Below are positions 3,778 through 45,170 of a DNA stretch of 64,000 nt, piece after piece; position 1 is the first letter of the stretch; the number at the start of each line of letters is the position of its first letter. The DNA is from Lachnospiraceae bacterium. Lineage in GTDB: Bacteria > Bacillota > Clostridia > Lachnospirales > Lachnospiraceae. The position numbers and the translations under genes are program-made. A model generated the notes under the pieces. It saw nothing but the letters and a program-made list of their open reading frames with translations, was not told the origin of the DNA and ran no database searches. Location: assembly GCA_017432565.1 (NCBI GenBank), contig JAFRIW010000003.1:1-64000 (forward strand), in the 5' to 3' direction.

Positions 3778-3892
3778 CGGCCATCACCTCCTTTTCCTTC
3801 TCATTCCAGCGGTTCGCGATCACACAGCACATGGTCAGGATACCGAAGCTTGACCCTGCACAAAAGCTCACAAAAGGTACGACCCATCTCAT
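3644..3892 (-). CDS. Small membrane protein, DUF3789-like N-terminus
   Basis: 82 residues from the ATG at 3892, overlapping the DUF5688 stop by four bases. The first 30 residues form one membrane helix (begins MRWVVPFVSF), as in the tiny DUF3789 proteins found at this spot in related elements. The remaining 50 residues are acidic and low complexity and overlap the start of pcfB for about 130 bases in another frame, which is unusual. The membrane part is believable; the long tail could be an accident of a missing stop codon. Confidence 0.5.
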   Translation of the reverse strand: MRWVVPFVSFCAGSSFGILTMCCVIANRWNEKEKEVMADAGGSGKQDSKPCDQHNEADDADDRPCGDDVPPAQEAGKGSEKE

Positions 3893-5331
3893 CTTGATTC
3901 CTCCTTCGTTTTCTTCGGCTTCTTCGCTGGGGTCTCGGTTTTCTTTTCCTGGCCAGCTTTCTCGGCAACCATCTCTGCAGCCTTCTCCTCCTGGAGTTTC
4001 ACGGCTTCATCCGGCATCGGGAGGGCCATAACACCTTTCCCCATGTGGATGAAGACCTCGGGCTGGTGGAACTGCTGCTCAAACTTCTGCATCTGGTCCG
4101 GGGTCAGGGAGCCGAAGCTCTCTTCGGTAAGGCCCACTACCAGGAAGGATCCTGCGACCACATCGTAGATCTGGCCGTCATCATCACGAAGAGCGCGGTT
4201 CAGGGGCAGTCCTTCCAACTTTCCTTCCTCGTTCATCACAAGGCCGACGTTCTCATCGAAGGGATAGGTGACCTCAATATACCCGCCGACGGCCTTCTGC
4301 AGATCCTCCAGATCCGTCCCGATTTCCACCGGACGGGGGTACTTTTCCGGCTCTACCAGAAGGACGGTCATAGTTTCCTTTGCAGTTTCCGGAGCTGCCG
4401 TCTCATACGCTACGGCAGCCTCCGCCACTCGGGACTCGAAGGTCGTTGCCTTCTCAAAGACCCTTGCCTCGCTGTCGTAGTGATAGACGCTGTCGGAGAG
4501 GAAGTCCGCCGCGCTGACCTCGGTCGCATTGACGCTCTGGACCATTTCCTCCAGCTGGGGACGCTGGAACTCGCCGTCATCCTTGATGAACAGGCATTCA
4601 TGGATGGAAGAAGGCAGCACAAAGAAGTCGCCTCCGAGCCTCTCCGCAGCCTGGTCCATGAATTCCGGGACCTGGACAGCAGCCGCGCCGTTCACGCCGC
4701 CTTCAACCGTTGCCACCCACATGGGAGATTCCGGCATGTCCATCATGCCGCCGGACATTTCCGCCATCATCTCGGACATGTTTTTGAGGGTCGGGGGCCT
4801 GTGAGCCATCTGGGAAGTCACGGCATCCTGATGAAGCTGCTCGGGAGTGATACCGAAATGCTCCATCATCTGATTCGTCACGAGAGTCGAGGCGTTGTGA
4901 TGCCGGGAGTCGCTGACATCGATGCGGTAGACCACCGCGATATCCTCGATGGTCTTATGCGGGATCTGCTCCAGCTTTTCCTTATTCGGTTCCACCGGGA
5001 TGACCTGCATCATGAGGTTTCCCTTCACGTTCCCGTACTCGGTGAACTGCTTCGTATCCACCTGCGGGATCTGCTCGATCGCCTTATCCAAGCCGGAAAG
5101 GAACTCGCTCATAACGGCTGCCAGGCGCTTCGGATTCTCAACCACCTGGTCGTGGAGGTCATGCAGGTTCATAGTCACGGCCGCATTCTGTCCTTCGGGA
5201 CGTACGGAGAGTCCCACATAGGACTCTCCCTGCAGCTTTTCCACCTTCTGGATGGTCACATCAGCTTCCGGATGGCGGGTCTTCGCCGCATCCTTAGCGA
5301 TATCCAGGAAATCTTCGTAGCTCATCGCCAT
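3889..5331 (-). CDS. DUF5688 family protein of conjugative elements
   Basis: 480 residues, soluble. It begins MAMSYEDFLDIAKDA, with a GGAGG site upstream, and has the family's repeated pattern: GLSVRP, NLHDLHDQV, an internal WVATVEGG, and the MTLSPDQMQKF-like segment near the end. The C-terminus is a lysine- and glutamate-rich tail. DUF5688 proteins are found almost only in Firmicutes conjugative elements between the replication genes and the VirD4 gene. Their function is not established. Gene order with pcfB and the coupling protein suggests a role in transfer or its control. Confidence 0.8.
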   Translation of the reverse strand: MAMSYEDFLDIAKDAAKTRHPEADVTIQKVEKLQGESYVGLSVRPEGQNAAVTMNLHDLHDQVVENPKRLAAVMSEFLSGLDKAIEQIPQVDTKQFTEYGNVKGNLMMQVIPVEPNKEKLEQIPHKTIEDIAVVYRIDVSDSRHHNASTLVTNQMMEHFGITPEQLHQDAVTSQMAHRPPTLKNMSEMMAEMSGGMMDMPESPMWVATVEGGVNGAAAVQVPEFMDQAAERLGGDFFVLPSSIHECLFIKDDGEFQRPQLEEMVQSVNATEVSAADFLSDSVYHYDSEARVFEKATTFESRVAEAAVAYETAAPETAKETMTVLLVEPEKYPRPVEIGTDLEDLQKAVGGYIEVTYPFDENVGLVMNEEGKLEGLPLNRALRDDDGQIYDVVAGSFLVVGLTEESFGSLTPDQMQKFEQQFHQPEVFIHMGKGVMALPMPDEAVKLQEEKAAEMVAEKAGQEKKTETPAKKPKKTKEESR

Positions 5332-5345
5332 AGTCAGGCACCTCC

Positions 5346-5987
5346 TTAGTCAAAGCAGAAGACGGATACTTCGCCTTCGCGGGTCTTGAGTTTCGTGGAA
5401 TGCTCCTCAAAGTAACGGGCTGCCGCATAGAGCTGCCTGGCATTGGGGCTCACCACCTCACCGGCTTCCTCATCGATGCCGAAGATCACGGCCGGGGCCT
5501 TGTAATAAGTCTTGTTGCCGCGCTTCAGGGGCTTTTTCTCCGCAATGGTGTAGTAGAGATCCTCGGTACCCGGGATCGGCTGCATGTCGTAGGTCCCGGT
5601 CTGTCCGGCAAAGATATCCCCGATCTCCTCGGCCAGCTCGTCCATGGTCATGATGGTGTTATCGCCGTCAGGGCGGGCTACCAGGACCATGGTGCCGTAG
5701 AAAGAGCCGCAGTCCCCGCTGTAGGGGCAGTTCTCACACTCGTCCTCATCATCCTCATCGGTTTCTGCTTCCATGAGTCCGACCAGGAAGGCTGCCTTTG
5801 CCACCATGACGGAACAGTCCATCAGCATGCCGGCTGTCTGGAGCAGGATATCCGCCGGGGAGTCCTCCTCCGTGTCGATTTCTAATTCAATTTCGGGAAT
5901 CTGCTTCTCCTTGTGCTGTTCCTGCATCAGCTTCTCAAAGGTCTTCATGTCGTTGGTGAGGCTCTTCATCTTGTTGGTTTTCTCCAT
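5346..5987 (-). CDS. Hypothetical conjugative-element protein
   Basis: 213 residues with a GGAG site before the ATG. The N-terminal third is helical and very acidic. The middle carries CENCPYSGDC (about residues 102-111), a clustered three-cysteine motif that could bind metal. The C-terminal half is a compact alpha/beta-looking domain. It is the first gene after the terminator that closes the rep-par operon, so it probably heads the transfer-associated transcription unit with DUF5688, pcfB and VirD4. I do not recognise the family. Confidence 0.7.
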   Translation of the reverse strand: MEKTNKMKSLTNDMKTFEKLMQEQHKEKQIPEIELEIDTEEDSPADILLQTAGMLMDCSVMVAKAAFLVGLMEAETDEDDEDECENCPYSGDCGSFYGTMVLVARPDGDNTIMTMDELAEEIGDIFAGQTGTYDMQPIPGTEDLYYTIAEKKPLKRGNKTYYKAPAVIFGIDEEAGEVVSPNARQLYAAARYFEEHSTKLKTREGEVSVFCFD

Positions 5988-6019
5988 AGGGTTCGTTTCT
6001 CCTTTTTTTGATTTTTGGG

Positions 6020-6053
6020 TAAAAGAAAACGCCTCTGAGAGATCTCAAAGACG
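6020..6053 (-). terminator. Intrinsic terminator after the element's parB
   Basis: CGTCTTTGAG and CTCAGAGGCG form a ten-base stem (with two G-U pairs) around an ATCT loop. Read leftward, TTTTCTTTTA follows (6029-6020). This separates the rep-par operon from the downstream transfer-associated genes. Confidence 0.8.
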
Positions 6054-6082
6054 TCGGCTGTAGGGCTCGTATTCGGTTGTTG

Positions 6083-7021
6083 TTATCGTTCCTGGTCACG
6101 CAGGCGCTTTTTCTGCCACTGTTCCAGGAGCTTGATGATGGTATCCTGCATCTGCTTTGGGGAGTAGGACTTCGGAAAGTACTTCCGGAGCTGCTCACTC
6201 TTGAAAGCGACCCGTTCAAGATCTCCCTTTTTGACTTCACCCAAGATTTCCTGCATGGCTTCCAGGGTACATCCGCCTTCCTGACTGAGTTTTTTGAGCC
6301 GCTGTGCCTGGGAAAGGGAGGGCGCTGCCTGCGTAAAATCCATGGCTTCGATGACATGCTGCTGTTCCTCTGGTGTCAGATAGGAAAGCTCAACCGCAGG
6401 GTTAAAAGAGATCTGCTTCTGATCGACCATATCCAGGAGTTCCGGGATCAGGTTGGTCAGGCGGATGAAGCGACGAACAGTCTCTCGGCTTTGATTATTC
6501 TGTGCTCCAAGTTCCTCATTACTCCTCAACCTCGGCACAACTTGTGTCGATGTCCCAGCCTGCTGAAGATCTGTTCTTGAGCCCTGATGATTCATGGCTT
6601 CCAACTTCATCTTGTAAGCAAAAGCCCGCTCACTTGGAAGAATGCTTTCCCTCTGCAGGTTGGAATCAACCATCAGCACGGTCGCGGCATCATCGTCCAT
6701 GTCCCGGACAATGACTGGAACTTCCGTAAGCCCGGCCGCTTCAGCCGCATGGGCTCTGCGGTGACCGGAGATGATCTCATAGCCGCCATCCTCCAGCGGC
6801 CTTGCAATCAGCGGCGTCAGGACACCGAACTGAGCGATACTTTCGGTTGTTCTCAGCATTGCTTCATCATCGACTACCTTAAATGGATGGTTCTTGAAAG
6901 GAACCAGTTCACTGATCGGTATCTTCTGGACTTTCTCCAGCTGGCTGTCGGCGCGGCTCTCATCAGTCTCAAAGATATCATCGTAGCTGCTCAAGCTGAT
7001 GTTTGCGCCTTTTCTCGGCAT
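6083..7021 (-). CDS. ParB/RepB/Spo0J family partition protein (element-encoded)
   Basis: 312 residues. The ParB N-terminal nucleotide-binding domain shows ISELVPFKNHPF, then ISGHRRAHAA (the GERR-type box with H in place of E) and NLQRE. A helix-turn-helix region follows (about 180-215, ending SRETVRRFIRLTNLI). The start lies inside the parA 3' end (44-base overlap) with its own GGAGG. With ParA it should maintain the excised circular form of the element. It is clearly different from the chromosomal Spo0J at 36 kb. No perfect 16-base chromosomal-type parS is seen within this element. Confidence 0.9.
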   Translation of the reverse strand: MPRKGANISLSSYDDIFETDESRADSQLEKVQKIPISELVPFKNHPFKVVDDEAMLRTTESIAQFGVLTPLIARPLEDGGYEIISGHRRAHAAEAAGLTEVPVIVRDMDDDAATVLMVDSNLQRESILPSERAFAYKMKLEAMNHQGSRTDLQQAGTSTQVVPRLRSNEELGAQNNQSRETVRRFIRLTNLIPELLDMVDQKQISFNPAVELSYLTPEEQQHVIEAMDFTQAAPSLSQAQRLKKLSQEGGCTLEAMQEILGEVKKGDLERVAFKSEQLRKYFPKSYSPKQMQDTIIKLLEQWQKKRLRDQER

Positions 7022-7805
7022 TGTGCATCACCTCCTTCGTGAGCGTCTGATAGGCTTCGGCTACCTTTCCCTTTGGGTCATGGGTAAAGATGCTTTTCCC
7101 TTCGGCAGATATCTCGGCAGCCCGGACAGACCTTGGAATATCCGTGCCATACACTTTGATCTTTCCGCCGTAGGTATCCCGGATCAGCTGGGAGATATCC
7201 TTCGCGTCATTCGTCCTGGCATCCACCATGGTCAGGAGGATCCCTTCGATCCGGAGTTTCGGATTGATCTGGCGGCGGACCTTGTTGATAGTGTTCAGGA
7301 GCTGCTCCAGACCTTTGGCAGAAAGGTAATTCGCCTGGACCGGGATGATCGCCTGATCTGCTGCAGCAAGGGCGTTCACTGTCAGCATTCCCAGAGAGGG
7401 CATGCAGTCGAGGAGAATGAAGTCGTAGTCCTTCTTTACCGTATCCAGATACTGCTTCAGGATCGTTTCCCGGCTCATGGCAGTGACCAGTGAGACTTCC
7501 GTGCCGGCGAGGGCGATGTTTGCCGGTACCAGGTCCACGCCTTCCGGATGATGAAGGATCCCTTCCCCCGGCGCGATCGGCTGGTCCTGTATGACCTTTG
7601 CCATCAGATCCGAGAGAGTAACCGGCAGGTCATCAGGGCGGTTATGTCCCAATGCCACCGTCAGGCTCGCCTGCGGATCCGTGTCGACCAGAAGTACTTT
7701 CTTCCCGGCCATGGCCAGTCCCACACCAAGGTTCTCACAGGTGGTGGTCTTGCCGGTTCCGCCTTTCTGGTTCGTTACTGCCGTAATCACGGCCTTATTC
7801 GACAA
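6978..7805 (-). CDS. ParA family ATPase (element-encoded)
   Basis: 275 residues. A deviant Walker A (QKGGTGKTTT, about residues 13-22), LLVDTDPQASLT and FILLDCMPSLG are diagnostic of ParA/Soj/MinD partition ATPases. The start codon is TTG, placed nine bases after a perfect GGAGG; there is no better start. It is translated between repA and parB and overlaps parB. It should drive segregation of the replicating circular intermediate. It has a longer C-terminus than the chromosomal Soj at 37 kb. Confidence 0.92.
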   Translation of the reverse strand: MSNKAVITAVTNQKGGTGKTTTCENLGVGLAMAGKKVLLVDTDPQASLTVALGHNRPDDLPVTLSDLMAKVIQDQPIAPGEGILHHPEGVDLVPANIALAGTEVSLVTAMSRETILKQYLDTVKKDYDFILLDCMPSLGMLTVNALAAADQAIIPVQANYLSAKGLEQLLNTINKVRRQINPKLRIEGILLTMVDARTNDAKDISQLIRDTYGGKIKVYGTDIPRSVRAAEISAEGKSIFTHDPKGKVAEAYQTLTKEVMHNAEKRRKHQLEQLR

Positions 7806-7819
7806 TAGTGATCACCTCC

Positions 7820-8716
7820 TTAGTCGTGATTCCCGTAAAAATCATAGTTTACTTTGGCCTGATAATAAGGACTGATCGTAGTCGGAGCATTGTACAGGGC
7901 TGCCAGCAGGTACTGCTTGATGTTGCGGACATCCGTTGTATTCTCTTTCAGGCAATCCATTACGTACTGGATATGGGAAGAATTCAGTTTGGCGATCTGG
8001 CTCTTCACCACATCAGCAGGCTTATCATCCCCGGCTACGCGGATATATTTCCTCTTTGAACAGTACGTATCTACCAGAAGATCCAGTATTCCCCGGATGG
8101 TTTCCCTTTCATAAGGGTACTGGTCAAGGAGATAATCGTATTCGATTTGATCCTCAAAAAAGCTTTTACAGATCATCCGGGCCCGCATCTCTTCCTCATC
8201 ACTTCCCGGATAGATAGGATTCTCTGTATATCTATTATCAGTATCATTATTATCAGTATTACTTCCGTGTGATTTTCGAACTTCTTGATGTGTGATTTTC
8301 ACATCTCCAGAAGTGTGATTTTCACATTTCAAGAAATGTGATGGAGAGGAGTTATCCACCTTATCCACCGGACAGATAAAGTTCTTCACGTAGATCAGGT
8401 TCGGTTTGCCAAGTCCCTGCCGTTTCCGCTCGATCAGGCCGATCTTTCCTTCCAGTTCATCCATCAGCTTCACTGCTTTCTGGTTCCCGCAGTTCAGCGT
8501 CTCCATGATCTCCTCCAGGGTGCAGATGATATAGACCCGGCCCTGGTCATCGAACCATCCGTTCTTTGCAGACAGATCCATGCGTTTCAGCAGGATCCCG
8601 TAAAGGACCTTGGCCTCCGGCGAGATGTTTTTGAACTGTTCCTGGCTGAAAAGCACTGTGGGGATCCGTATAAAGGAGAACTGGTCTGCCTGTGCTCCGT
8701 AGAAGTAGTCATACAT
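7820..8716 (-). CDS. repA: Replication initiator protein A (RepA_N family)
   Basis: 298 residues. The first 110 residues match the RepA_N winged-helix initiator (FSFIRIPTVLFSQEQF, SPEAKVLYGILLKRMDLS, GRVYIICTLEEI). A linker follows, then a C-terminal helical domain like DUF6017 (YLLAALYNAPTT). Its presence indicates the element can replicate autonomously after excision. The start overlaps the preceding small gene by eight bases, with a strong GGAGG. The middle linker (about residues 130-170) is low complexity and rich in N, D and S. Confidence 0.9.
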   Translation of the reverse strand: MYDYFYGAQADQFSFIRIPTVLFSQEQFKNISPEAKVLYGILLKRMDLSAKNGWFDDQGRVYIICTLEEIMETLNCGNQKAVKLMDELEGKIGLIERKRQGLGKPNLIYVKNFICPVDKVDNSSPSHFLKCENHTSGDVKITHQEVRKSHGSNTDNNDTDNRYTENPIYPGSDEEEMRARMICKSFFEDQIEYDYLLDQYPYERETIRGILDLLVDTYCSKRKYIRVAGDDKPADVVKSQIAKLNSSHIQYVMDCLKENTTDVRNIKQYLLAALYNAPTTISPYYQAKVNYDFYGNHD

Positions 8717-9656: not shown

Positions 9657-9730
9657 CGTCCGCGAGGTGACTCGAACACCCGACCTACCGCTTAGGAGGC
9701 GGTCGCTCTATCCAACTGAGCTACGCAGAC
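9657..9730 (-). tRNA. tRNA-Arg (anticodon CCU)
   Basis: Full cloverleaf. The acceptor GTCTGCG pairs with CGCGGAC, the D arm is GCTC...GAGC, the anticodon stem ACCGC/GCGGT holds the loop CTCCTAA (anticodon CCT), and the T loop is TTCGAGT. The discriminator base is G and CCA is not encoded. The conjugative element lies directly on the 3' side, so this gene is probably its integration target, with the 3' end restored by the att core. Confidence 0.93.
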
Positions 9731-10215: not shown

Positions 10216-13200
10216 ATGACTTCATTCAGATTATCAGCACAAGACCTGAGAGTAAACGGCCTGGTACACCCAATCAACATCGATTCGCCTCAGCCTGTTT
10301 TCAGCTGGCGCATGGACTGCGGCCGGACCGGCGCGCGGCAGACCGCTTATCAGCTCACCGTCTCTGCCCGGGACACCGTTCTCTGGGACAGCGGCAAAGT
10401 CGAAAGCGATGCATGTTTTGACATTCCTTATCCTGCGGACGCCGCGGCGCTCACGCCGGAAACGGATTACAACTGGAAGGTGACCATCTGGGATGAGACC
10501 GGCGCAAGTGCCTCGTCGGAGGCGGCTTTTTCGACCGGTCTGATGGGGACGGATCTGTCCGCCTGGCACGGGGCAAAATGGATCGGCCCCGAAGAGATCC
10601 AGTTCTGCGCCGCCACGCTGGCAGTGTTCCGGATCCGGTTCCGCATGCAGATCGAGGCGGGCGGGACCTGCGCGGGCATTCTTTTCGGCGCAAACGATCC
10701 GCGGTATGCATCGTCGATCCAGAACAACTATCTGATCCACGGAGAGAACTACATCGCCTACCGGCTGGATGTCAGTCAGATTCCGGCCCGCGTCAATGTG
10801 TCCCGCAAAGGCTATCTGCCCGGAGAGGAAGAGGAAATTCTGCTGGAATCCATGGAAGTTCCCGATTCCGTCATCAGCATGGAAAACCGCTACGGGGAAC
10901 ACGTCTATGAGATCGCGGTCAGCGGCTGCCAGATGGAATTCATGACCGTAGACGGCACAGCGCTTGAGACGGACGAATCCAACCTTGCCATTGTCAGCAA
11001 TCCGCTTCATCCTGTCACGGAGCGCACGCACCTGGTGCTGAATCCCACGAAGGCGATCGGCGACACGCCCGTCTTCCCCCGCCTGTGCGAGGTCGGCTTT
11101 GCAACAGATGCGGAAACCGGGGCTGCTTTCCGCGATTTCCGCATCCACCACTACGGCGGTGAGCAGAATGAGATCTTCGGGGAGCAGACCGGCGCAGGGT
11201 ATTCTGTTTTTGACGGCAAAAAGGGACTCAGGGTTGAAGGATCGGAAATTATTGCCGCCCCCGGAACACTGGTTTACGCAGATCCTTCTTTTGGCTCTGT
11301 TCCCATGCTCCGCAGGGATCTGACGGTGAAAGGCCCGGTCGCCGGTGCAAAGATTTACGCCGCGGGCAAGGGCATTTTTGAGCTGTCCCTGAACGGACAG
11401 AAGGTCGGGGACGAATACCTCAGCGCGGGCGACATGGATTTCCGCAGGCATATCTATTACGAGGCGTTTGACGTCACCGCCCTGCTCCACGCGGGAAAGA
11501 ATACGCTGGGCGCGGTGCTGGCCTCCGGCTGGTTCAACGACCAGGCTTCCTACACACTGGAAACTTACAACTTCTACGGAGACCGGCAGGCGCTGCTGGC
11601 AGTGCTTTGCATTCGTTATGAAGACGGCTCTGTCGAATATGTTCCCACCGACGGAACCTGGCAGTATTTTGGACAGGGACCGATCCGCAATGCGGCGAAT
11701 TTCAACGGCGAGATCTACGACGCCACGCGCGATGACCTGATCTCCGGCTGGGATACGCCGGATTACGCCGAAATCCTTCGCGAACTCTGGGAAAACGTGC
11801 CCGAAGCCGGCAGTATGGTATGCGGGATTGAACCGCAGATCGTCGCCAAGCCGGACCCCGGCATCACAAAATACGGCGAACTGACAGCTGTCTATCACTC
11901 CATGCAGACACGCGGGACCGATCACGACACTGTTTTTATCTATGATATGGGCGTCAACATGGTCGGTGTGCCCGAGATCACCTTCCCGGAGGGAAAACCC
12001 GGACAGGTCGTGACCATCCGGTATGCCGAGATTCTCTATCCTGTGCTCGCAGAGAACAATCCCTACTGCTACGGAGAACTCGGCGGACTGATTCTGACAG
12101 AGAATCTGCGCGGCGCACTGGTCACGGACCGCTATATCATGAAGGGAGAGCCCGGCGAGACCTTCCGGCCGCTGCACACCTTCCACGGGTACCGCTATGT
12201 GGAAATCTCCGGCATCGATAAGCCGATCCCGGCTGAAAACATCCGGGGCCTCCTGCTGAGCTCCGTGAAGCCGACTGCTTTCTATGCGTCTTCCAACCCG
12301 CTGACCAATCAGCTTTTTGAAAACATTAACCGCTCTACGCTCGAGAATCACATCTCAATCCCCACGGACTGCCCGCAGCGGGATGAGCGGCTGGGCTGGG
12401 CCGGCGACGCGCAGGTCTACAGCGAGACCGCAACCTTTATGGCGGATATGCGTACCTTCTACCGGTATTTCTGCATGCTGCAGAAGGAGGCACAGGGGCC
12501 GGACGGCACTTTCCACCTGTTCGCGCCGGGCTATGCGCCGATCGGCGTGGCTTTTGCACTCGGCTACACCTGGAACACCGCGGGTGTTGTCATTCCCTGG
12601 CAGACTTACCTTCAGTACGGTGACCTCACTGTTCTGCGGGAGAATTACCCGGCGATGCGCCTGCATATTTACGGCATGATGGATATGAAGGCAGAGGGAA
12701 GAAACTATCTGACCAGCCATATCGGCTTCCTGGGCGATCACCTCTCCGTGACGGACACAGATCCGTCCCTGATGGACAATGCCCAGTATTACCGGGCTGT
12801 GCGGATTGTGCAGCACACGGCAGAGCTCCTCGGGGAAAAAGAAGACGCGGCCGTCTTTTCGGCGTTCGGTGACGGCCTGCGAAAAGAATGGAATGAAGTT
12901 TTTGTCGGCGCGGATCATCGGACACAGAACGCGGACGGCGTCCTGCAGAACACCCAGGCGTCCTACGCACTGCCGCTGATGTGCGGTGTTTACTCGGATG
13001 AAAACACGCCGTACGCCGGGCAGCTCCTGGAGGATGCCTGCGCCGCAGCCGGCTACACCATGACCACCGGTTTCATGGGCACCGGACCGCTTCTTCCCGC
13101 CCTGACAGAGGGCGGTCATGTGGATGCCGCCTACACGCTGTTTGAACAGACCGGCTATCCTTCCTGGCTGTATCCGGTGCTGAACGGCGCGACGACGGTC

Positions 13201-13647
13201 TGGGAGCGCTGGGGTTCCTATACGATCGAGAACGGCTTCGGCGGTCAGAACGGCATGAACTCCTTCAACCACTACTCGCTCGGTGCCGTCGCCTCCTGGA
13301 TGCTGGAATATCAGGCCGGTATTCAGCGGGGAAGTTCAGAAGACAGCGCCGGATTCAGACGTTTCATCCTGCAGCCCACACCCGGCGGCCATTTCACGCA
13401 TGTCAGAGCGGACTACGACTCGGTCTGCGGAAGGATTTCCTCCGGATGGACCGCGCAGGACGGGGAGCTGCTCACCTATGATGCAGTCGTTCCCGCCAAC
13501 ACCTCTGCGACCCTGTACCTGCCGGTGTCAGAGGAGCGGGCTCTGAAGATGCAGGAAAACGGAGCCGTCTACTGCGGTATGACGGAGCACAACCGCCGGC
13601 AGTGCGCACAATTTGAACTCACCTCCGGAACCTGGCACTTCGAGTGA
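10216..13647 (+). CDS. Glycoside hydrolase family 78 alpha-L-rhamnosidase
   Basis: 1143 residues, no signal peptide, so probably cytoplasmic and acting on imported rhamnosides. The order is an N-terminal Fn3-like domain (about 8-105), beta-sandwich domains with an inserted concanavalin-like region (about 110-330), a further beta domain with GWFNDQ, then the (alpha/alpha)6 catalytic barrel and a C-terminal beta domain. The barrel carries DCPQRDERLGWAGDAQ (about 717-732), whose acidic residues are the GH78 signature, and TTVWERWGSY (about 992-1001). The site GGGGGG stands seven bases or less before the ATG. The 230 bases upstream hold no gene. It converges on the GH2 gene. Confidence 0.92.
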   Translation: MTSFRLSAQDLRVNGLVHPINIDSPQPVFSWRMDCGRTGARQTAYQLTVSARDTVLWDSGKVESDACFDIPYPADAAALTPETDYNWKVTIWDETGASASSEAAFSTGLMGTDLSAWHGAKWIGPEEIQFCAATLAVFRIRFRMQIEAGGTCAGILFGANDPRYASSIQNNYLIHGENYIAYRLDVSQIPARVNVSRKGYLPGEEEEILLESMEVPDSVISMENRYGEHVYEIAVSGCQMEFMTVDGTALETDESNLAIVSNPLHPVTERTHLVLNPTKAIGDTPVFPRLCEVGFATDAETGAAFRDFRIHHYGGEQNEIFGEQTGAGYSVFDGKKGLRVEGSEIIAAPGTLVYADPSFGSVPMLRRDLTVKGPVAGAKIYAAGKGIFELSLNGQKVGDEYLSAGDMDFRRHIYYEAFDVTALLHAGKNTLGAVLASGWFNDQASYTLETYNFYGDRQALLAVLCIRYEDGSVEYVPTDGTWQYFGQGPIRNAANFNGEIYDATRDDLISGWDTPDYAEILRELWENVPEAGSMVCGIEPQIVAKPDPGITKYGELTAVYHSMQTRGTDHDTVFIYDMGVNMVGVPEITFPEGKPGQVVTIRYAEILYPVLAENNPYCYGELGGLILTENLRGALVTDRYIMKGEPGETFRPLHTFHGYRYVEISGIDKPIPAENIRGLLLSSVKPTAFYASSNPLTNQLFENINRSTLENHISIPTDCPQRDERLGWAGDAQVYSETATFMADMRTFYRYFCMLQKEAQGPDGTFHLFAPGYAPIGVAFALGYTWNTAGVVIPWQTYLQYGDLTVLRENYPAMRLHIYGMMDMKAEGRNYLTSHIGFLGDHLSVTDTDPSLMDNAQYYRAVRIVQHTAELLGEKEDAAVFSAFGDGLRKEWNEVFVGADHRTQNADGVLQNTQASYALPLMCGVYSDENTPYAGQLLEDACAAAGYTMTTGFMGTGPLLPALTEGGHVDAAYTLFEQTGYPSWLYPVLNGATTVWERWGSYTIENGFGGQNGMNSFNHYSLGAVASWMLEYQAGIQRGSSEDSAGFRRFILQPTPGGHFTHVRADYDSVCGRISSGWTAQDGELLTYDAVVPANTSATLYLPVSEERALKMQENGAVYCGMTEHNRRQCAQFELTSGTWHFE

Positions 13648-17069: not shown

Positions 17070-17113
17070 GACAAAAACACTGCGAAGATCCCGAATCTGA
17101 TCCCCGCAGTGTT
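17070..17113 (-). terminator. Intrinsic terminator of the keto-acid operon
   Basis: AACACTGCG (17076-17084) pairs with CGCAGTGTT (17105-17113). The inner GATCC-type bases pair further, and read leftward the stem is followed by TTTTT. It lies 45 bases past the rpiB-like stop codon and closes the five-gene operon. Confidence 0.8.
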
Positions 17114-17157: not shown

Positions 17158-17622
17158 TTATGTCTCCGGGTGCTCCGCAAGCAGGTCCGCCTCGAGTTCA
17201 TCCAGCTTTTTCAGCCGGATCCGGAACTCCTCCTCGCCGCAGAACTCCGCATTCAGGAAGGCGCGGATGACTTCCTTCGCCGTGTAGATTCCGATCACCT
17301 CTCCGCCGATCGCCAGGACCTGGACATCGTCGTGCTCCACGCACTGGTGTGCGCAGTAGGTGTCGTGGCAGAGCGCCGCGCGAATTCCCCGGATTTTGTT
17401 GCAGGCAATGACCGCCCCGCACCCGGTGGAGCAGAACAGAATTCCTCTGTCCGCCTCGCCGCGCAGGATTGCGCCGCAGACCAGCCGCGCGATATCCGGA
17501 AAATCCACCATGTCAGTCGAATAACAGCCGTAATCCGTCACTTCATGCTGCTCTTTCAAGAGCGGCAGCAGCTGCATTTTCATTGTATAGCCGCAGTGAT
17601 CCGAACCAATTGCAATCCGCAT
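17158..17622 (-). CDS. RpiB/LacAB family sugar-phosphate isomerase
   Basis: 154 residues. The family's GSDHCGY (Asp8/His9 region), the active-site CSTGCGAVIACNKIRGIRAA (about 64-83; the catalytic Cys-x-Thr is kept) and the HDTYCA...VLAIGG segment are all present. The residue before the GxG motif (Cys in place of the usual Ile/Val) departs from housekeeping RpiB. Its place at the end of a catabolic operon favours a specialised isomerase of aldose or ketose phosphates over pentose-phosphate metabolism. Confidence 0.85.
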   Translation of the reverse strand: MRIAIGSDHCGYTMKMQLLPLLKEQHEVTDYGCYSTDMVDFPDIARLVCGAILRGEADRGILFCSTGCGAVIACNKIRGIRAALCHDTYCAHQCVEHDDVQVLAIGGEVIGIYTAKEVIRAFLNAEFCGEEEFRIRLKKLDELEADLLAEHPET

Positions 17623-17656
17623 ATTTACTCCTTTACCGCTTTTCTTACCGCTTCCT

Positions 17657-18607
17657 TCACTGATTCAGATCCCCGTACAGGCAGTCCGAGACCTTCAGGA
17701 ACATTTTGTCGCGGTACGCGATCATCTCTTTGTCGCGGCCGTCCGCGTACTCATAGTACCCCTTGCCGCTCTTGACGCCGAATTCTCCGTTGTTGTAGTG
17801 ATCCGCCAGCAGCGCGTGGACCTCGCCGGTGTCAGACAGATCCGCAAACAGGTAGCTCGCGATCTTGTAAAAAGTATCCAGGCCGCCGAGATCAGCGATC
17901 TCGAAGGGACCCAGGCACGCGTAGCGCAGGCCGAGGCCGTACTTGAAGACGTTGTCGATGTCCTCCATGGAAGCGACGCCCGACTCCACCAGGCTCATCG
18001 CCTCGCGCAGGATCGCGAACTGGAACCGGTTGACCAGGAAGCCCGGCACCTCGCGGTTCAAGGTGACCGGAAAATGCCGGATGTCCAGTGCCATGGCCCG
18101 GACCGTCTCCATTGTCTCTTCGTCCGTCTCCTTCGCCCGGATCACTTCGATCAGTGGGCAGATATGCGGCGGATTCAGCCAGTGCATGCCGCAGAAGCGC
18201 CCCGGCAGCCGGACCGCTTCCGCCATTTCAGTGAGGGAAAGGCCCGACGTGTTGCTGGTCAGGATCGCCGTTTCCTTCACGATCGCGGAAATCTGGCTCC
18301 AGAATTTCTTCTTGATCTCCATGTTCTCGATGATGGCCTCGACCACGTAGTCCGCCCGGGCAAAATCCTGAGGGTCCTGCGTGTATCCGATTCCGGCGCG
18401 GATCTTCTGCGCCGTCTCCGGGCTCATCCGGCCGGTCTCCACTGCCGCGCCGAGGTTGACTTCCATCAGCTCCCGGCTTTTCACAAGCGCCTGCTCACTG
18501 ACGTCGTAAAGCGTGACCTGATAGCCGCATTTTGCAAAAAGCTGTGCCATGGAGGAGCCCATCACGCCGGCTCCCGCGATAAACACGTTCTGAATATTCT
18601 CCAGCAT
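17657..18607 (-). CDS. NAD-dependent 3-hydroxyacid/3-hydroxyacyl-CoA dehydrogenase family protein
   Basis: 316 residues, with the Rossmann motif GAGVMGSS (about 11-18), the SNTSGLSLTEM catalytic-region segment and a C-terminal helical domain. It has HWLNPPH (about 163) in place of the HFFNP-A/V-P of short-chain 3-hydroxybutyryl-CoA dehydrogenases, and KYGLGLRYACLGPFE near 230. From memory, both resemble lambda-crystallin/L-gulonate 3-dehydrogenase and carnitine dehydrogenase. The neighbouring beta-keto acid cleavage enzyme makes oxidation of a 3-hydroxy acid to the 3-keto acid the likely role. Confidence 0.85.
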   Translation of the reverse strand: MLENIQNVFIAGAGVMGSSMAQLFAKCGYQVTLYDVSEQALVKSRELMEVNLGAAVETGRMSPETAQKIRAGIGYTQDPQDFARADYVVEAIIENMEIKKKFWSQISAIVKETAILTSNTSGLSLTEMAEAVRLPGRFCGMHWLNPPHICPLIEVIRAKETDEETMETVRAMALDIRHFPVTLNREVPGFLVNRFQFAILREAMSLVESGVASMEDIDNVFKYGLGLRYACLGPFEIADLGGLDTFYKIASYLFADLSDTGEVHALLADHYNNGEFGVKSGKGYYEYADGRDKEMIAYRDKMFLKVSDCLYGDLNQ

Positions 18608-18654
18608 CTCTTTTCTCCTTGAAAAAGATCTGTACAGCAGGGCTCCGAACCGGA

Positions 18655-19590
18655 TCAGAACCGGACTTTGTCCAGCCCCTTTAAGTGCAGCATCTGCCGC
18701 GCCTCGTCACTGGAGGCGATCTCGAAGTCCAGATCCTCCAGAATCCGGCGGATCTTCGTCACCTGCTCCGCGTTGTTCTTCGCCAGCGTGCCGTCCGGAT
18801 GAATATAGAGCCCGTCCTCGAGACCGACGCGGACGTTTCCGCCGTTTAAGGCCATCATGGCGCCCAGCTTGAACATTTTGCGCCCGATTCCGACAGTGCT
18901 GTACTGGATGTCTTCACCGAGCATCTTTTTCGCCTGATCGATCATGAACATCAGCGTGGTGTTGTTGGCCGGCATACCGCCCTGCACGCCCGGAACAAAC
19001 TGAATGTACACAGGCTGTGTGATCACGCCGTACTTCTTCAGGATCTTCAGGTTGTTCAGCTGACCGTAGTCGAAGATCTCAAACTCCGGCATGGTCCCGC
19101 AGCGGTTCATCGCATTGATGCAGTACTCCATGTCCCGGAAGGTGTTTTTGAACACATTGTCCCAGGTCCGCTCCACATATTCCCGCTCCCAGTCGTAGAG
19201 CGGGTTTTCCACATCCGCCAGCAGCCGGTTGTAGCAGAAATTCATGGACCCGCCGTTGGCGGACGCCATTTCCGGAGCGAATTCCTCTATGACGGCAAAA
19301 CGCTCTTCCATACTCATGCCGTTCGCGCCGCCGGTCGTGATGCCGATGACCGCGTTGCACTCCTGCTTGATCCCGGAGAGAATATAGCGGAAAACGGCAG
19401 GATCTCCGGTGGGCTCGCCGTTTTCGGCCCGCGCGTGGATATGGACGACCGCCGCACCCGCTTTGTGCGCGTCGACCGCATTCCGGATGATTTCATCCGG
19501 GTTTTTCGGCAGATACGGCGACAGGCTCGGCACCATTGTCGCACCGGTGATCGCCGCGCTGATTACAACTTTTCTGTCCTTTATGAACAT
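18655..19590 (-). CDS. Beta-keto acid cleavage enzyme (BKACE, DUF849)
   Basis: 311 residues. BKACE proteins use zinc and acetyl-CoA to cleave beta-keto acids into acetoacetate and an acyl-CoA, as in lysine fermentation (Kce) and carnitine breakdown. Seen here are VVHIHAR (His50 and His52, zinc ligands), STGG-like ITTGGANG, IQFVPGVQGGMP, TVGIGR and VRVGLEDG (zinc-ligand Glu). The residue matching the amine-binding Glu of Kce (TGAE) appears to be Thr18 here, which argues against an amino or trimethylamino substrate. It lies between the RraA-like and dehydrogenase genes. Confidence 0.9.
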   Translation of the reverse strand: MFIKDRKVVISAAITGATMVPSLSPYLPKNPDEIIRNAVDAHKAGAAVVHIHARAENGEPTGDPAVFRYILSGIKQECNAVIGITTGGANGMSMEERFAVIEEFAPEMASANGGSMNFCYNRLLADVENPLYDWEREYVERTWDNVFKNTFRDMEYCINAMNRCGTMPEFEIFDYGQLNNLKILKKYGVITQPVYIQFVPGVQGGMPANNTTLMFMIDQAKKMLGEDIQYSTVGIGRKMFKLGAMMALNGGNVRVGLEDGLYIHPDGTLAKNNAEQVTKIRRILEDLDFEIASSDEARQMLHLKGLDKVRF

Positions 19591-19628
19591 GGTCTCCCCC
19601 TGTTCTCCTGCCTTTCCGGAAGGTCCGC

Positions 19629-20351
19629 TTACCCTCTGTAGACCTTCTGATCGTTTACGACAGAACTGTTCAGCTCCCAGCCGAGCTTTTCAAAATGTGC
19701 CTTGCGGGTATTTTTGTCGTTGAAAAGCTCTCTGTGCGCATATTTGGCCACATCCTTCGCAATACCTCTCGGCACGACAATCACACCGTCGCCGTCCGCC
19801 ACGATGATGTCCCCGGGGACGATCGTCACGCCGCCGATCGCGATTTTGCAGTCCTTGGCGTCAAACTGAAGTCTCGTCTGGTCCATCTTCTGGGAGACAA
19901 AATAACTCCAGACCGGGATTTTCTCCATGATGACTTCATCCGTGTCGCGGATACCGCCGCCGTTGGTCACCATGCCGCGGACACCGGCGATCTTGGCACC
20001 GAGCGAATTCTCCGAGCCCATCAGGCCGACATCAACGCCGGACACATCCAGCGCCACAAAGTCGCCTTCCTCCAGATCCTGCATCCAGGGATAGATACAG
20101 ATCTCTTTATAGAAATGGTTGGACCACTCGGTATATTCGTCGCCGATCACGCGCGGATCCGGTCCCTCGTAGGGAAGGTAGCGCGCCGTTCTCGCGATGC
20201 CGACCGCTTTGGTCCGCTCCAGCGGGCGGATCCGGTAATCCAGCGAGCCGTAGTGATGATAGCCCATCCAGTCCATTCCGTCTCTCACATCTGCGACGCG
20301 GAGCGGCTCAAACAGCTCGAGCAGTTCATTATCTTCAGGGTTTTTTCTCAT
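19629..20351 (-). CDS. RraA-like protein (class II aldolase/decarboxylase superfamily)
   Basis: 240 residues from the ATG at 20351, placed eight bases after GGAGG; the upstream start at 20387 lacks a site. The RraA fold is shown by VRGMVTNGGGIRDTDE (about 118-133; the RD pair binds divalent metal), VDVGLMGSENSLGAK and the VVPGDIIVADGDGVIVVP strand. Relatives include 4-hydroxy-4-methyl-2-oxoglutarate aldolases and oxaloacetate decarboxylases. Its length exceeds the RNase E inhibitor RraA, and the neighbours point to a catabolic lyase or decarboxylase. Confidence 0.85.
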   Translation of the reverse strand: MRKNPEDNELLELFEPLRVADVRDGMDWMGYHHYGSLDYRIRPLERTKAVGIARTARYLPYEGPDPRVIGDEYTEWSNHFYKEICIYPWMQDLEEGDFVALDVSGVDVGLMGSENSLGAKIAGVRGMVTNGGGIRDTDEVIMEKIPVWSYFVSQKMDQTRLQFDAKDCKIAIGGVTIVPGDIIVADGDGVIVVPRGIAKDVAKYAHRELFNDKNTRKAHFEKLGWELNSSVVNDQKVYRG

Positions 20352-20560
20352 GTCCGATTCCTCCGTTTTTTCAGTGTATTTAAGCATGGCACCGGTTTCC
20401 CGGTGTCATGCAGTATCCCGAAGCGCTTCACCGGGCCGCGTCCCGGCGAAAATCTCTTCTGTTTTAACTTTAGAATCGGAGGTTAAATGAGACTACTCAG
20501 CTTTTGCCTTAAGCAAAACGTTTTTTGACCTTTTACTATGACCCTGCGCTGCGTACTTTT

Positions 20561-21712
20561 TCAGCGGATCAGTACATGCAGCAGCACAAGCACAGCGAGA
20601 AAAACAAGGTTGGTCAGCGTGAAGTACGCAAGATACCGGCCTTTTTCGACGCCGGGCTCTCGGGTGATAATCTTGAAGCTGATCAGGCTCGCCATGGAGG
20701 CGATCAGGGTGCCGAGTCCGCCCAGATTGGTGCCAATAATCAGCGAATCGATCCGGTCTGTGAAGCCGGACAGGAGAATGGCGGCAGGAACATTGCTCAT
20801 GAACTGGCTGGCCGCGATCGCCGTAAAGACCTCGTGGCCTTCCACGATGCGCAGCAGGGCATCCCGGAAGGCGGGAATCCGGCCCAGGTTTCCGATAAAG
20901 ATAAACAGTGCCAGAAACGTCCCCAGCAGCGCATAGTCCACCTCCCGAAGCGTTTCCCGGTCTGCGGCGAGCGCATAAAGCAGCACTGCCGCGAACGGGA
21001 CAGGCCAGGGCAGGAGCCGTACCACCGTGGTCAGGCACAGTATAAACAAAATCATGTAAGCGCCGATTTTGTGCCGGTCCTTCACCTCGTCCGCGCCGGT
21101 TTCCGATGCGTCGGATCCGGCCGGATTCTGTCCGCTGACAGCGATGCCGACGCGGCGTCCGCGCACCCGGATCCAGATCAGCAGCAGAAGGAGCGATAAG
21201 AGGGTATAAGGCAGGATCAGCAGGAAAAACCGGGGCAGCGGCATGTCGGAAATGCCGTAAAGATAGAGATTCTGCGGATTGCCGACCGGCGTCGCCATGC
21301 TGCCCAGATTCGCCGCGACGGTCTCGAGGACGACGGCGGGGATCAGCCAGCCTCTGCGGACCTCCGGCGCGAATTTTCCGATGCAGAGGATGGTCAGCGG
21401 GACGAGGGTGATCAGCGCGACATCGTTGGTGATCAGCATACTCAGGAAGAAGGAGACCAGCACCAGCATCGTCACCGTCCCGGACACGCTCCGGCTTCCG
21501 GCGGTCATGCGGCCGGCGAGGTACGTGAAGAAGCCGGTTCTGCGCACTCCGGAGGAGATCGTCATCAGGCAGAAGAGCAGTCCCAGTGTCCGGAAATCAA
21601 TATAACCGATATACGCCCGGTCGGGCGGAATGACCGGCATGGAGAGGACCGCCAGGACGGCGGCGACGGAAAGGACGGTGTCTTTCCGGATAAACGCGAT
21701 AAGTTTCTGCAT
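20561..21712 (-). CDS. SLC13/ArsB-type anion permease
   Basis: About 383 residues with 10-11 membrane helices. The start is taken as the ATG at 21712 (MQKLIAFIRKD), preceded by AGGAG; a TTG 19 codons upstream (21769) is also open. Typical features of the ion transporter superfamily are LITNDVALITLVPL and ATPVGNPQNLYLYG in the first half, and QFMSNVPAAILLSGF and GTNLGGLGTLIASMASL in the second. It is the first gene of the leftward operon, so it probably imports the carboxylate the enzymes degrade. The 209 bases between it and the RraA gene hold a small TTTTGC/GCAAAA hairpin only. Confidence 0.85.
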   Translation of the reverse strand: MQKLIAFIRKDTVLSVAAVLAVLSMPVIPPDRAYIGYIDFRTLGLLFCLMTISSGVRRTGFFTYLAGRMTAGSRSVSGTVTMLVLVSFFLSMLITNDVALITLVPLTILCIGKFAPEVRRGWLIPAVVLETVAANLGSMATPVGNPQNLYLYGISDMPLPRFFLLILPYTLLSLLLLLIWIRVRGRRVGIAVSGQNPAGSDASETGADEVKDRHKIGAYMILFILCLTTVVRLLPWPVPFAAVLLYALAADRETLREVDYALLGTFLALFIFIGNLGRIPAFRDALLRIVEGHEVFTAIAASQFMSNVPAAILLSGFTDRIDSLIIGTNLGGLGTLIASMASLISFKIITREPGVEKGRYLAYFTLTNLVFLAVLVLLHVLIR

Positions 21713-21792: not shown

Positions 21793-22902
21793 ATGCATCA
21801 TACGGATAATTCCTTTAATATTCAAGCATATATGACCAAAGGTGTCGAGCGGGTTGTGGCGGACGCGCTAAAAGCGACGCTGAAGGACCCGCGGGAGAGC
21901 GCCTTTATGGTGAAATTTGCGGCGGCGTCCCGGGCGGCTTCCGCGAAAAGAAAGCGCGCCGAGGAGGCGGGGGAGCATATTCCGCCGTTTCTGATCGCCA
22001 GCATCACCAGCAGCTGCAATCTGCACTGCAGCGGCTGCTATTCCCGCTGCAATCACGCGACGGTCGACGCGGAGCCGGTCAGCCAGCTCACCGGCGCGGA
22101 GTGGCTGCGGATCTTTGAGGAAGCGGACGAGCTGGGCATCAGCTTTATTCTGCTGGCGGGCGGCGAGCCCATGCTGCGCCGGGATATTATTGAGGCGGCG
22201 GCGGAAAGGCCGGGCATTCTGTTTCCGATTTTTACAAACGGGACTTTCATGGACGCGCGTTATTTTGACCTGTTTGACCGGAGCAGGAACCTGCTGCCCG
22301 TCATGAGCATCGAGGGAGAGCGCGAGATCACGGACAGCCGGCGCGGCGCCGGCATCTACGACCGGCTGATCGCCAACATGGACGAGCTGCACCGGCGCGG
22401 CCTGTTTTTCGGCGCCTCTGTCACGGTGACCACAGAGAATCTGAAGGAGGTCACTTCCGGGGCATTTCTGAAAAGTCTCTCCGACCGGGGCTGCAAAGCA
22501 GTTGTTTTCGTCGAGTTTGTGCCGGTCACGGAGGAGAGCACACATCTCGCGCCCGGCGATGAGGAGCGGGAATATCTCCGGTCCGAAATCGCACGGCTGC
22601 GCGCGGAGCATCCGGAAATGGTCTACATCTCCTTCCCGGGCGATGAAAAAAGCTCCGGCGGCTGTGTGGCTGCGGGCCGGGGCTTCTTCCATATCAATTC
22701 GCACGGCTGCGCGGAGCCCTGCCCCTTCTCGCCGTATTCGGACATCAATGTGCGGAATACATCTCTTCGCGAGGCGCTGCATTCTCCGCTGTTTCTGGCG
22801 CTTCAGTCCGGCGATATCCTGCTGGATGATCACGACGGCGGCTGCGTTCTGTATGAGAAGCGGGAGCTGGTGGAACAGCTTCTGGCAGGGTCAGGCACGT
22901 GA
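21793..22902 (+). CDS. Radical SAM protein
   Basis: 369 residues. The cluster motif is CNLHCSGC (Cys at about 75, 79 and 82, CxxxCxxC), followed by LLAGGEPMLR, the SAM-contacting GGEP motif, and MSIEG. The C-terminal part has HGCAEPCPFSPY plus a late GGCV, which could hold an auxiliary iron-sulfur cluster as in SPASM or Twitch domains. GGAGGG lies nine bases before the ATG. The gene is divergent from the permease operon, 80 bases away, and may share its control. No peptide substrate ORF was found next to it. Function unassigned. Confidence 0.88.
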   Translation: MHHTDNSFNIQAYMTKGVERVVADALKATLKDPRESAFMVKFAAASRAASAKRKRAEEAGEHIPPFLIASITSSCNLHCSGCYSRCNHATVDAEPVSQLTGAEWLRIFEEADELGISFILLAGGEPMLRRDIIEAAAERPGILFPIFTNGTFMDARYFDLFDRSRNLLPVMSIEGEREITDSRRGAGIYDRLIANMDELHRRGLFFGASVTVTTENLKEVTSGAFLKSLSDRGCKAVVFVEFVPVTEESTHLAPGDEEREYLRSEIARLRAEHPEMVYISFPGDEKSSGGCVAAGRGFFHINSHGCAEPCPFSPYSDINVRNTSLREALHSPLFLALQSGDILLDDHDGGCVLYEKRELVEQLLAGSGT

Positions 22903-23185: not shown

Positions 23186-24502
23186 TTATTTCAATAATTC
23201 TGGCGTAAGTTTTACTTCGTCCGGCATGATCTCATGGTAGTTCATGGCAGTGAGAAGTTTTTCGTCCAGAAGCAGCTGAGACAGTTTGAAGGGGCTGAGA
23301 CCGTTCAGACTGTCTCTTTTTGTACTGTTGATGTGATTCGCAAGAAGATTTGTTTTTTCCTGCGTCAGGTCGTCAAAGGTTTCTCCCTTTTTGCGGACAT
23401 ATCGGATATACTCATAATTCTTTTCACAACAGCCCTTTTGCCAGAAGGAATACGGATCACAGTAGAAAACGGTCGTCCGCCGGCCTTTTACAGATGAGGC
23501 CTCCAGGTATTCACGACCCGAAAATTCTCCGCCGCCATCCGTTAGGATCACTTCAAAGAGTTTCCTGAAAACCTCTGTACCCAGCTTCTCTTCCAGCCAG
23601 TCAACGACTCTGTGCACTTCCTCCTTTGTCTGAGCCTCCAGAAGAAAGATCAGCATGAGCGCAGTCCGGCGGAATGTAAATGTCAGGAGTACCTTTTTCC
23701 CATTCTTTTTTCCTTCGACACAGTCCATTTCAACGATGCTGGCATCCGGATGCTTCTCGACAAAGAGGCGGAAGTCTTCGTAGTTGTGTCCGACCCGGTA
23801 TTTTCGGTCCTTAGCTCCTGTCTCTGTCGGTTTCTTGCGCTTCTTATACTTCACCTTTCGCCTCAGATCGATGTTGCGAACATCAAAAACGCCTGCATCA
23901 ATATACGTATACATCGTTCTGCGGGAACATTTCAGCTCACCCGCATGCGTAGCATAAATATGCGCAAGCGATTGGCCCTGTTTTATAAGCGGTGTCAGGA
24001 TATCATTCATCCGCTGTATGCTTTCAGGAGTCTGATTGATTCCTTCACGTGTTGACACTAACAGATCCCGGTAGCGATCTTCTGCATACTTGGAAGAATA
24101 GATCCGCTTTTCCATCATACAGTTAACTCTTTTTCCACAGCCATTGCATACGTAAGGTGCTTTCAAAAGTTTTGCGCATTGCTGCGGCCGGTATGCCTTG
24201 CAGATATCACTGCAGCGGAACTTCCGACATGTACGGCACGTCTGGAGGCACTCCCGGTCGCCGCAGACATGCATGATCACGCAGCGGTTGTGTATATCCC
24301 GGTTCGCTTCACAGGGAATGTTTCCAAAGCCCTTATACTCCTTGATCTGAGCATTACGGCGGACCTCCTTTGAAACAGTTGTCGGATCTTTCCGTATGCT
24401 CCGTCCGATTTCGGCGAAGGAATCGTTATTGATAAGCCCTTTTTCAATGTTGATCCGATCTGACAAGGTCAGATGTTTCTGATTACCTTTTTCTTTGTTC
24501 AT
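23186..24502 (-). CDS. IS30 family transposase
   Basis: 438 residues from the ATG at 24502, with AGAGGAG upstream; the 51-base extension lacks a site. The N-terminal helix-turn-helix is HLTLSDRINIEKGL...SFAEIGRSIRKDPTTVSKEV. A cysteine-rich segment with several CxxC pairs (about residues 73-130) follows. The DDE core has VEMDCVEG, VILTDGGGEF and QKGCCEKNYEYIR as the D, D and E blocks. All catalytic blocks are intact, so the enzyme may be active. Confidence 0.92.
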   Translation of the reverse strand: MNKEKGNQKHLTLSDRINIEKGLINNDSFAEIGRSIRKDPTTVSKEVRRNAQIKEYKGFGNIPCEANRDIHNRCVIMHVCGDRECLQTCRTCRKFRCSDICKAYRPQQCAKLLKAPYVCNGCGKRVNCMMEKRIYSSKYAEDRYRDLLVSTREGINQTPESIQRMNDILTPLIKQGQSLAHIYATHAGELKCSRRTMYTYIDAGVFDVRNIDLRRKVKYKKRKKPTETGAKDRKYRVGHNYEDFRLFVEKHPDASIVEMDCVEGKKNGKKVLLTFTFRRTALMLIFLLEAQTKEEVHRVVDWLEEKLGTEVFRKLFEVILTDGGGEFSGREYLEASSVKGRRTTVFYCDPYSFWQKGCCEKNYEYIRYVRKKGETFDDLTQEKTNLLANHINSTKRDSLNGLSPFKLSQLLLDEKLLTAMNYHEIMPDEVKLTPELLK

Positions 24503-24878
24503 AGCTCCTCTTTCTGCACAGGCCAGGCAATCAGTAACCAGTACAGTATACAATAGAGAAGCGGAGCCTGCGTGGTATTACAAACAGAAACAAGGCTATT
24601 CGCATCCGCCAGCCTTGACAGCCGGCATCAGCGTGGGTGCTCTATTTTGGCGACGGGAACTCAGGGATATCGGTACATCAGGAATTCCCGTCGGACTGCC
24701 GATCATACCACGCAGAAGCCGTCGGTCAAGGCCAAGCCGCTGACGCGGTGGCTGACTTCTTGGTTGTCATTGGATTGTTGGCTCAGGAGAATCTAGGAAT
24801 ATCGCCTGAGACCGTGCAATCATAAAAGACTCGATGTATGCGGAGGTAATGTCAGCTACTGTGGAATTTACTTCTGCA
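24503..24878. other. Non-coding right segment of the IS element
   Basis: About 375 bases between the transposase start and the right repeat. Three overlapping short rightward frames exist (60-80 codons), but none has a good ribosome site or recognisable motif. The segment must include the transposase promoter (read leftward); otherwise I see nothing convincing in it. Confidence 0.4.
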
Positions 24879-40575: not shown

Positions 40576-40611
40576 CCGTCGTTCCCTTATTTTTCGAGAC
40601 AGGTCGTCTTT

Positions 40612-42036: not shown

Positions 42037-42064
42037 CCTGTTATTCCTCTGTCCCGAAAGTGAA

Positions 42065-45164: not shown

Positions 45165-45170
45165 TACATT

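Follow-up and report, generated by a model that had tools for sequence, protein, structure and literature searches.

A route built on a beta-keto acid cleavage enzyme (BKACE) is known for carnitine, and a BKACE stands in the middle of the five-gene locus described here, which lies in the window, our term for the whole stretch of DNA analysed (positions 1 to 64,000 of contig JAFRIW010000003.1, assembly GCA_017432565.1, from a Lachnospiraceae bacterium). Further BKACE routes are known for lysine, deoxyribonate (PMC6365646) and phloroglucinol (PMC10470551). In the oxidative deoxyribonate pathway of Pseudomonas simiae, the BKACE uses acetyl-CoA to cleave a 3-keto sugar acid formed by a dehydrogenase, and the acetoacetate released goes to a thiolase (PMC6365646). 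We propose the same two central steps for our locus, but the P. simiae dehydrogenase is a short-chain dehydrogenase/reductase (SDR) rather than a member of the 3HCDH family, neither RraA nor RpiB takes part, and the kinase is a glycerate kinase and not of the DUF1537 family. A 3HCDH-family dehydrogenase acting on a free 3-hydroxy acid is coupled to a BKACE in the TfD-TAL pair of Clostridium scatologenes (PMC10470551). That pathway, however, requires a phloroglucinol reductase and a PF04199 cyclohydrolase, which the window operon lacks, and the window BKACE scores under the model cut-off. As to RraA, FlDet, a family member of similar size, is a 2-keto-3-deoxy-glucarate dehydratase/decarboxylase in the catabolism of uronic acids from alginate (PMC8563752). 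Its gene context differs. Four-carbon acid-sugar pathways with DUF1537 kinases are also known (D-threonate kinase has its own model, NF047819), and we know of no BKACE in those described. The sister clusters of our locus resemble them in carrying a DUF1537 kinase, an AP_endonuc_2 protein, an aldolase and a sugar transporter, whereas the window operon contains none. The single reactions are of known kinds, and in the open-access literature that we searched we found no description of BKACE, RraA, RpiB and DUF1537 in combination.

We tentatively read the locus of this gut-type bacterium as a catabolic operon for a free sugar-like 3-hydroxy acid, that is, one neither CoA-linked nor phosphorylated, and put the chances of this reading a little below even. 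An earlier note on this DNA had named the families of the five genes and had proposed a hydroxy- or sugar-acid route around the BKACE. Pfam matches on the minus strand confirmed the families, and the proposed route finds support in the clades of BKACE, RraA and RpiB and in the group of the 3HCDH-family dehydrogenase (HCDH), which recur in acid-sugar clusters carrying sugar ABC transporters, a DUF1537 kinase, an IlvD/Edd dehydratase, aldolases or AP_endonuc_2 isomerases. An ortholog of the window BKACE (91%) was found in one other genome among 36 congeners sampled, a metagenome-assembled genome (MAG) from roe deer abomasum (L015, the sister genome), which has all five genes together with AraC, GH2 and GH78 genes, and in no other genome of a 391-genome class sample at E <= 1e-50. 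The five genes, at 21712-17158, and the hairpin that follows them are, in order of transcription:

20561..21712, minus strand: CitMHS/IT-superfamily anion permease, probable substrate importer (PF03600, 3e-32; PF00939, 1e-8; the L015 copy is 77% identical)
19629..20351, minus strand: RraA-family enzyme (PF03737, 9e-22)
18655..19590, minus strand: BKACE (PF05853, 7e-92; NF053538, 379 bits; alignment and tree)
17657..18607, minus strand: HCDH, with NPPH at residues 145-148 and GLGLR at 224-228 (PF02737, 1e-55; PF00725)
17158..17622, minus strand: RpiB/LacAB-family isomerase (PF02502, 5e-47)
17070..17113, minus strand: intrinsic terminator-like hairpin and U tract, 3' of the RpiB gene (fold energy; an equivalent but different hairpin in L015)

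The genes for RraA, BKACE, HCDH and RpiB are spaced by only 38, 47 and 34 nt and firmly form one operon, whereas 209 nt separate the permease gene, upstream on the same strand, from that for RraA, so that its cotranscription is only probable; the single operon of the earlier note thus holds for four genes and, with this reservation, for the fifth. The clear terminator that it also described corresponds to a 15-bp hairpin (17113-17070) followed by U residues directly 3' of the RpiB gene, with a folding energy of z = -3.46 against shuffled sequences. A simple consensus terminator scan did not list this hairpin, and the call is fold-based; in L015 a strong hairpin with a T-run, of different sequence, occupies the same place after RpiB. 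The RraA gene most likely starts at ATG 20351, preceded by GGAGGA, rather than at 20387, where the longer open reading frame begins.

The BKACE matches PF05853 with 308 bits (cut-off 24.8), and its zinc ligands and catalytic motifs (H50, H52, E258, TGG, NGGSMNF and R237) are intact in the alignment, which supports competence for cleavage; its substrate we infer. The distal pocket is unusual, with the motif T18-M19-V20: Thr18 takes the position of Glu14 of Kce, as the earlier note had pointed out, and is followed by Met-Val, where nearly all relatives have His-Thr. The best NCBIfam model is NF053538 (3,5-dioxohexanoate:acetyl-CoA transferase), at 379 bits below its cut-off of 430; the lysine Kce model NF052387 gave 249 bits of the 382 required and the 3-oxoadipate model 184 of 350.

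A scan of GTDB species genomes for relatives gave 39 loci. In the BKACE tree the window sequence forms one clade (support 96/89) with those of L015, Anaerocolumna sedimenticola (L016), Massiliimalia timonensis (L017) and two MAGs (L018 and L025), and seven other Bacillota sequences (L019-L024 and L026) form a second, clade B (100/96). RraA is present in every locus of the window clade except L017, and RpiB in those of the window, L015, L017 and L018; neither was found in the seven clade-B loci or in about 30 other BKACE loci within the flanks examined, some of them short. The association of RraA/RpiB with the window clade has a Fisher p of about 1e-4, the sister pair being counted once. Clusters of this clade hold an RraA 53-78% and/or an RpiB 58-60% identical to that of the window, as well as thiolase, DUF1537 kinase, SDR, AP_endonuc_2 and PCC-domain proteins and a CUT1-like sugar ABC transporter, and in all four non-sister members the thiolase, DUF1537 kinase and SDR genes come after that for BKACE. 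Clade-B clusters carry an HCDH (43-48%), often with an IlvD/Edd dehydratase, and the window operon combines the RraA/RpiB partners of its own clade with the dehydrogenase typical of clade B. The complete five-gene set recurs in the sister genome only, and the co-conservation raised by the earlier note is in this respect narrow; the unit that recurs more widely is BKACE with RraA and/or RpiB.

Other BKACE loci were seen along the way. The window genome (G000) encodes a second BKACE (282 aa) on contig C41 (L092:7665-9999), adjoining a DUF1537 acid-sugar kinase that is 47-49% identical to the kinase of the sister clusters and is one of two DUF1537 genes that this genome has elsewhere. L092 also holds an Asp/Glu racemase-family protein, a sugar ABC transporter, a GH127 and another GH78, and the BKACE-DUF1537 pairing arises there independently, in a different BKACE subfamily. 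At L103:6969-10844, a BKACE (53%) is flanked on one side by a UlaG-like protein of metallo-beta-lactamase fold and on the other by an IlvD dehydratase (85% to its counterpart in L026). The L-ascorbate/3-keto-L-gulonate substrate that this arrangement brought to mind was dropped, as we found no paper joining ascorbate to a BKACE and no UlaG-like gene in the window. Upstream of the permease, the window encodes a divergent radical SAM protein (21793-22902) with no close family model, a 59% relative of which lies near the BKACE in L022.

The closest solved structures to HCDH are those of 3-hydroxybutyryl-CoA dehydrogenases (HBDs) and of the FHMPC dehydrogenase 4om8, which acts on a free carboxylic acid. 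The catalytic residues S121, H142, E154 and N193 are kept. Asn221 of HBD has been reported as a CoA contact (PMC10470551); this region reads GLGLRY in the window enzyme, an insertion common to other members of free-acid type and absent from HBD 4kug. The NPPH motif seen by the earlier note is indeed present, and it too is shared with enzymes of free-acid type and absent from the CoA-acting 4kug; being common to free-acid members of the family, it does not by itself serve as the argument against carnitine that the note had made of it. In the tree, HCDH groups (89/93) with a paralogue from the same genome and with the BKACE-linked enzymes of clade B, found beside BKACE or IlvD, apart from both the HCDHs of 3-hydroxybutyrate clusters and the HBDs. 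Residues and tree together support action on a free 3-hydroxy acid. HCDH and its paralogue join at 91/87, the paralogue on a long branch. The paralogue (47%; contig C47, L116:4235-14618) lies in a row of sugar ABC transporter, RraA-like, HCDH, IlvD/Edd and pyruvate:ferredoxin oxidoreductase genes, apparently a second acid-sugar pathway with an independent RraA-HCDH pair. In the four SDR-type genomes a search at E <= 1e-40, run without a positive control from among them, found no HCDH homologue; SDR and HCDH may thus stand in for one another as 3-dehydrogenases. Further HCDH relatives, in L117-L120, are clustered with 3-hydroxybutyrate dehydrogenase, GntP permease, thiolase and 3-oxoacid CoA-transferase and are possibly free (S)-3-hydroxybutyrate dehydrogenases.

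In the RpiB of Leishmania donovani, His11, Arg113, Arg137 and Arg141 are the positively charged residues on the phosphate side, and Cys69, Thr71, His102 and Asp10 are catalytic or contact the substrate (PMC4783025). Read from alignments to five solved RpiB sequences, the window homologue keeps the latter set (D8, C64, T66 and H97) and, on the phosphate side, H9 and R136, whereas Arg113 and Arg137 have become E108 and E132, a loss of two of the three arginines. The same two sites are altered in its relatives from L015, L017, L018 and L077, the first to E, Q or D and the second to E. Since the phosphate arginines are lost and the catalytic residues kept, the enzyme is likely to favour a sugar without phosphate, probably a carboxylated one, and the lack of a kinase therefore poses no problem. 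The processing of phosphorylated fragments by RpiB and RraA, as the earlier note had it, does not agree with this loss. In the class sample the RpiB clade occurs in 2 of the 391 genomes and the RraA clade in 13; both RpiB-clade genomes (that of the window and G422, which holds L077) have RraA adjacent or in the same operon.

HMG/CHA class II aldolases of the RraA fold have a motif with the spacing D-X20-R-D, of which the window enzyme retains the R-D (R135-D136) and has Glu114 (Asn in some relatives) for the first Asp. Class II pyruvate aldolase activity is assumed for most RraA-fold proteins that carry the motif, and RraA-fold enzymes decarboxylate oxaloacetate (PMC5065237). Relatives 57-78% identical to the window's RraA have PCC, ABC, RpiB or BKACE genes as neighbours. 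In five genomes of one family, a member of the RraA clade lies 3' of a glucose-6-phosphate dehydrogenase-like gene, identified by eye. These loci (L068:7689-10508, L070:7866-10675, L071, L072 and L073) mostly have a PCC/DUF296 gene after RraA; a literature search on the role of bacterial PCC/DUF296 proteins returned only papers on plant AHL proteins.

In the catabolic operon that we propose, the permease would import an organic anion, as its family suggests. The RpiB homologue would isomerise an unphosphorylated aldose/ketose acid sugar whose carboxylate would sit roughly at the phosphate site of ribose 5-phosphate, a step suggested because phosphate arginines have been lost and catalytic residues retained. 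HCDH, judging by its residues and tree position, would then use NAD(P)+ to oxidise the free acid at its C3 hydroxyl. From the resulting 3-keto acid the BKACE would move the C1-C2 unit to acetyl-CoA, so that a shortened acyl-CoA forms alongside acetoacetate or the 2-hydroxy analogue of acetoacetate. RraA may apply divalent-metal enolate chemistry to the remaining keto acid, either as a 2-keto acid class II aldolase or by decarboxylation, as its family would suggest. In the sister clusters, SDR would replace HCDH, and thiolase and DUF1537 kinase would complete the route. The step order, the substrate and the RraA reaction we infer, and that RpiB is probably no normal phosphate isomerase we read from residues and trees. 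The scheme in its full form is less likely than not, and less probable than the operon's general role. It would be a route for acid sugars that dispenses with phosphorylation: an enzyme of RpiB fold, turned into an isomerase of carboxylated sugars without phosphate, would supply a 3-dehydrogenase of free acids, the BKACE would use acetyl-CoA to split a hydroxylated 3-keto acid, and an aldolase/decarboxylase of RraA fold would take the other fragment.

By analogy, our best guess at the substrate would be a 2-deoxy-hexonate or 2-deoxy-5-keto-hexonate-like acid, the C6 counterpart of the deoxyribonate route. Since deoxyribonate (C5) yields glyceryl-CoA, which needs a glycerate kinase, a C6 2-deoxy acid would yield a C4 acid, fitting the DUF1537 kinase of the sister clusters; this kinase family is known for four-carbon acid sugars. 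Chemically tempting, again as a guess, is 2-deoxy-5-keto-gluconate, a hydroxylated 3-hydroxy-5-oxohexanoate. We recognised no inositol genes in the clusters and keep the inositol idea as a substrate guess only.

Several observations weigh against the proposed free-acid route. The thiolase, kinase and SDR of related clusters are missing from the operon; thiolases occur in the window genome only away from the operon, and a PF01144 CoA-transferase was not found in that genome, which leaves the activation of acetoacetate unexplained. The T18-M19-V20 pocket replaces the HTP of every close relative, so the operon may serve another substrate than the sister clusters do, and RraA has Glu for the Asp of its metal motif. 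In HCDH, Arg stands at the position of the CoA-contacting Lys56 of HBD, making some CoA binding conceivable, and the support of its group (89/93) falls under a strict threshold.

Among the alternatives, the one that survives best, unlikely as it is, would be decarboxylative: HCDH would oxidise an aldonate at C3, RraA would decarboxylate the product to a free ketopentose and RpiB would isomerise it, with the BKACE in a side reaction. Such a route would resemble the catabolism of L-gulonate and, but for the phosphate, the oxidative steps of the pentose phosphate pathway, and GLGLR and NPPH also occur in gulonate-dehydrogenase-like members. The decarboxylation of oxaloacetate by RraA-fold enzymes (PMC5065237), the five genomes with RraA after a glucose-6-phosphate dehydrogenase-like gene, and G422, where RpiB adjoins RraA without a BKACE, are all in its favour. 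However, it leaves no role for the BKACE, which is found in every operon of the clade, and most RraA precedents act on 2-keto acids.

Simple utilisation of 3-hydroxybutyrate, or of another short 3-hydroxy acid, is much less probable. HCDH homologues (44-46%) do cluster with 3-hydroxybutyrate dehydrogenase, thiolase, CoA-transferase and GntP permease, and CsTfD also accepts (S)-3-hydroxybutyrate (PMC10470551), but the HCDHs of those clusters form a separate clade, the window genome yielded no PF01144 match, and RraA and RpiB would be superfluous. Slightly less probable again is a route of phloroglucinol type, in which HCDH would be the triacetate-forming dehydrogenase and the BKACE the triacetate acetoacetate-lyase (TAL), ending polyphenol breakdown after deglycosylation by a rhamnosidase. 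The TfD-TAL pair is a real precedent (PMC10470551), NF053538 is the top BKACE model and a GH78 rhamnosidase lies nearby. We rejected this route for the sub-threshold NF053538 score and for the lack of any PF04199 match (the dihydrophloroglucinol cyclohydrolase family) in the 96.65% complete genome, control genomes having given matches; in addition, no reductase (SDR) is found among the operon genes, the only part of the genome searched for one, and the BKACE relatives occupy acid-sugar clusters. Lysine fermentation and carnitine degradation, which the earlier note rightly thought unlikely, are barely credible, having only BKACE and HCDH family membership in their favour, and were rejected along with 3-oxoadipate on the Kce and 3-oxoadipate scores, the Glu14-to-Thr18 change and the carnitine dehydrogenase models (NF005716, 129 of 592 bits; NF005471, 116 of 414), all far under their cut-offs.

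Beyond the terminator lie three neighbours that are syntenic in L015:

16223..17041, minus strand: AraC-family regulator (cupin and HTH), ATG at 17041; context, neighbour kept in L015
13702..16005, minus strand: GH2 glycosidase; context outside the operon (family match, synteny in L015)
10216..13647, plus strand: GH78 alpha-L-rhamnosidase; context outside the operon (family match, synteny in L015)

The two glycosidases are real and conserved in L015, but a substrate released by nearby glycan degradation, as the earlier note envisaged, finds no support here: a terminator separates them from the operon and the loci of wider relatives lack them. Farther out, conjugation and replication genes (TraG-type coupling protein, ParB, RepA_N and DUF3801) at 1547-8716, ending near a tRNA at 9657-9730, probably form an integrated conjugative element beside the acid-sugar locus. 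The genes for MnmG, MnmE, DnaA, GyrB and GyrA (38671-54840) indicate that some 25 kb lie between the locus and the probable origin of replication. Between operon and origin lies a transposase-like gene with an HTH_38 domain (23186-24553; IS30-like by eye), a near copy of which is found in L015 (2899-4266).

The BKACE family is large, and few of its physiological roles are settled. Through this locus and its relatives, one subclade of the family is linked with RraA, RpiB, DUF1537 kinase and sugar transporters, which narrows the enzymes and substrates to be tested to a short list. Furthermore, should the RpiB homologue turn out to take acid sugars without phosphate, the annotation "ribose 5-phosphate isomerase B" would be wrong for some genes, and a simple sequence signature, the loss of the LGxR and RH arginines, would pick them out.

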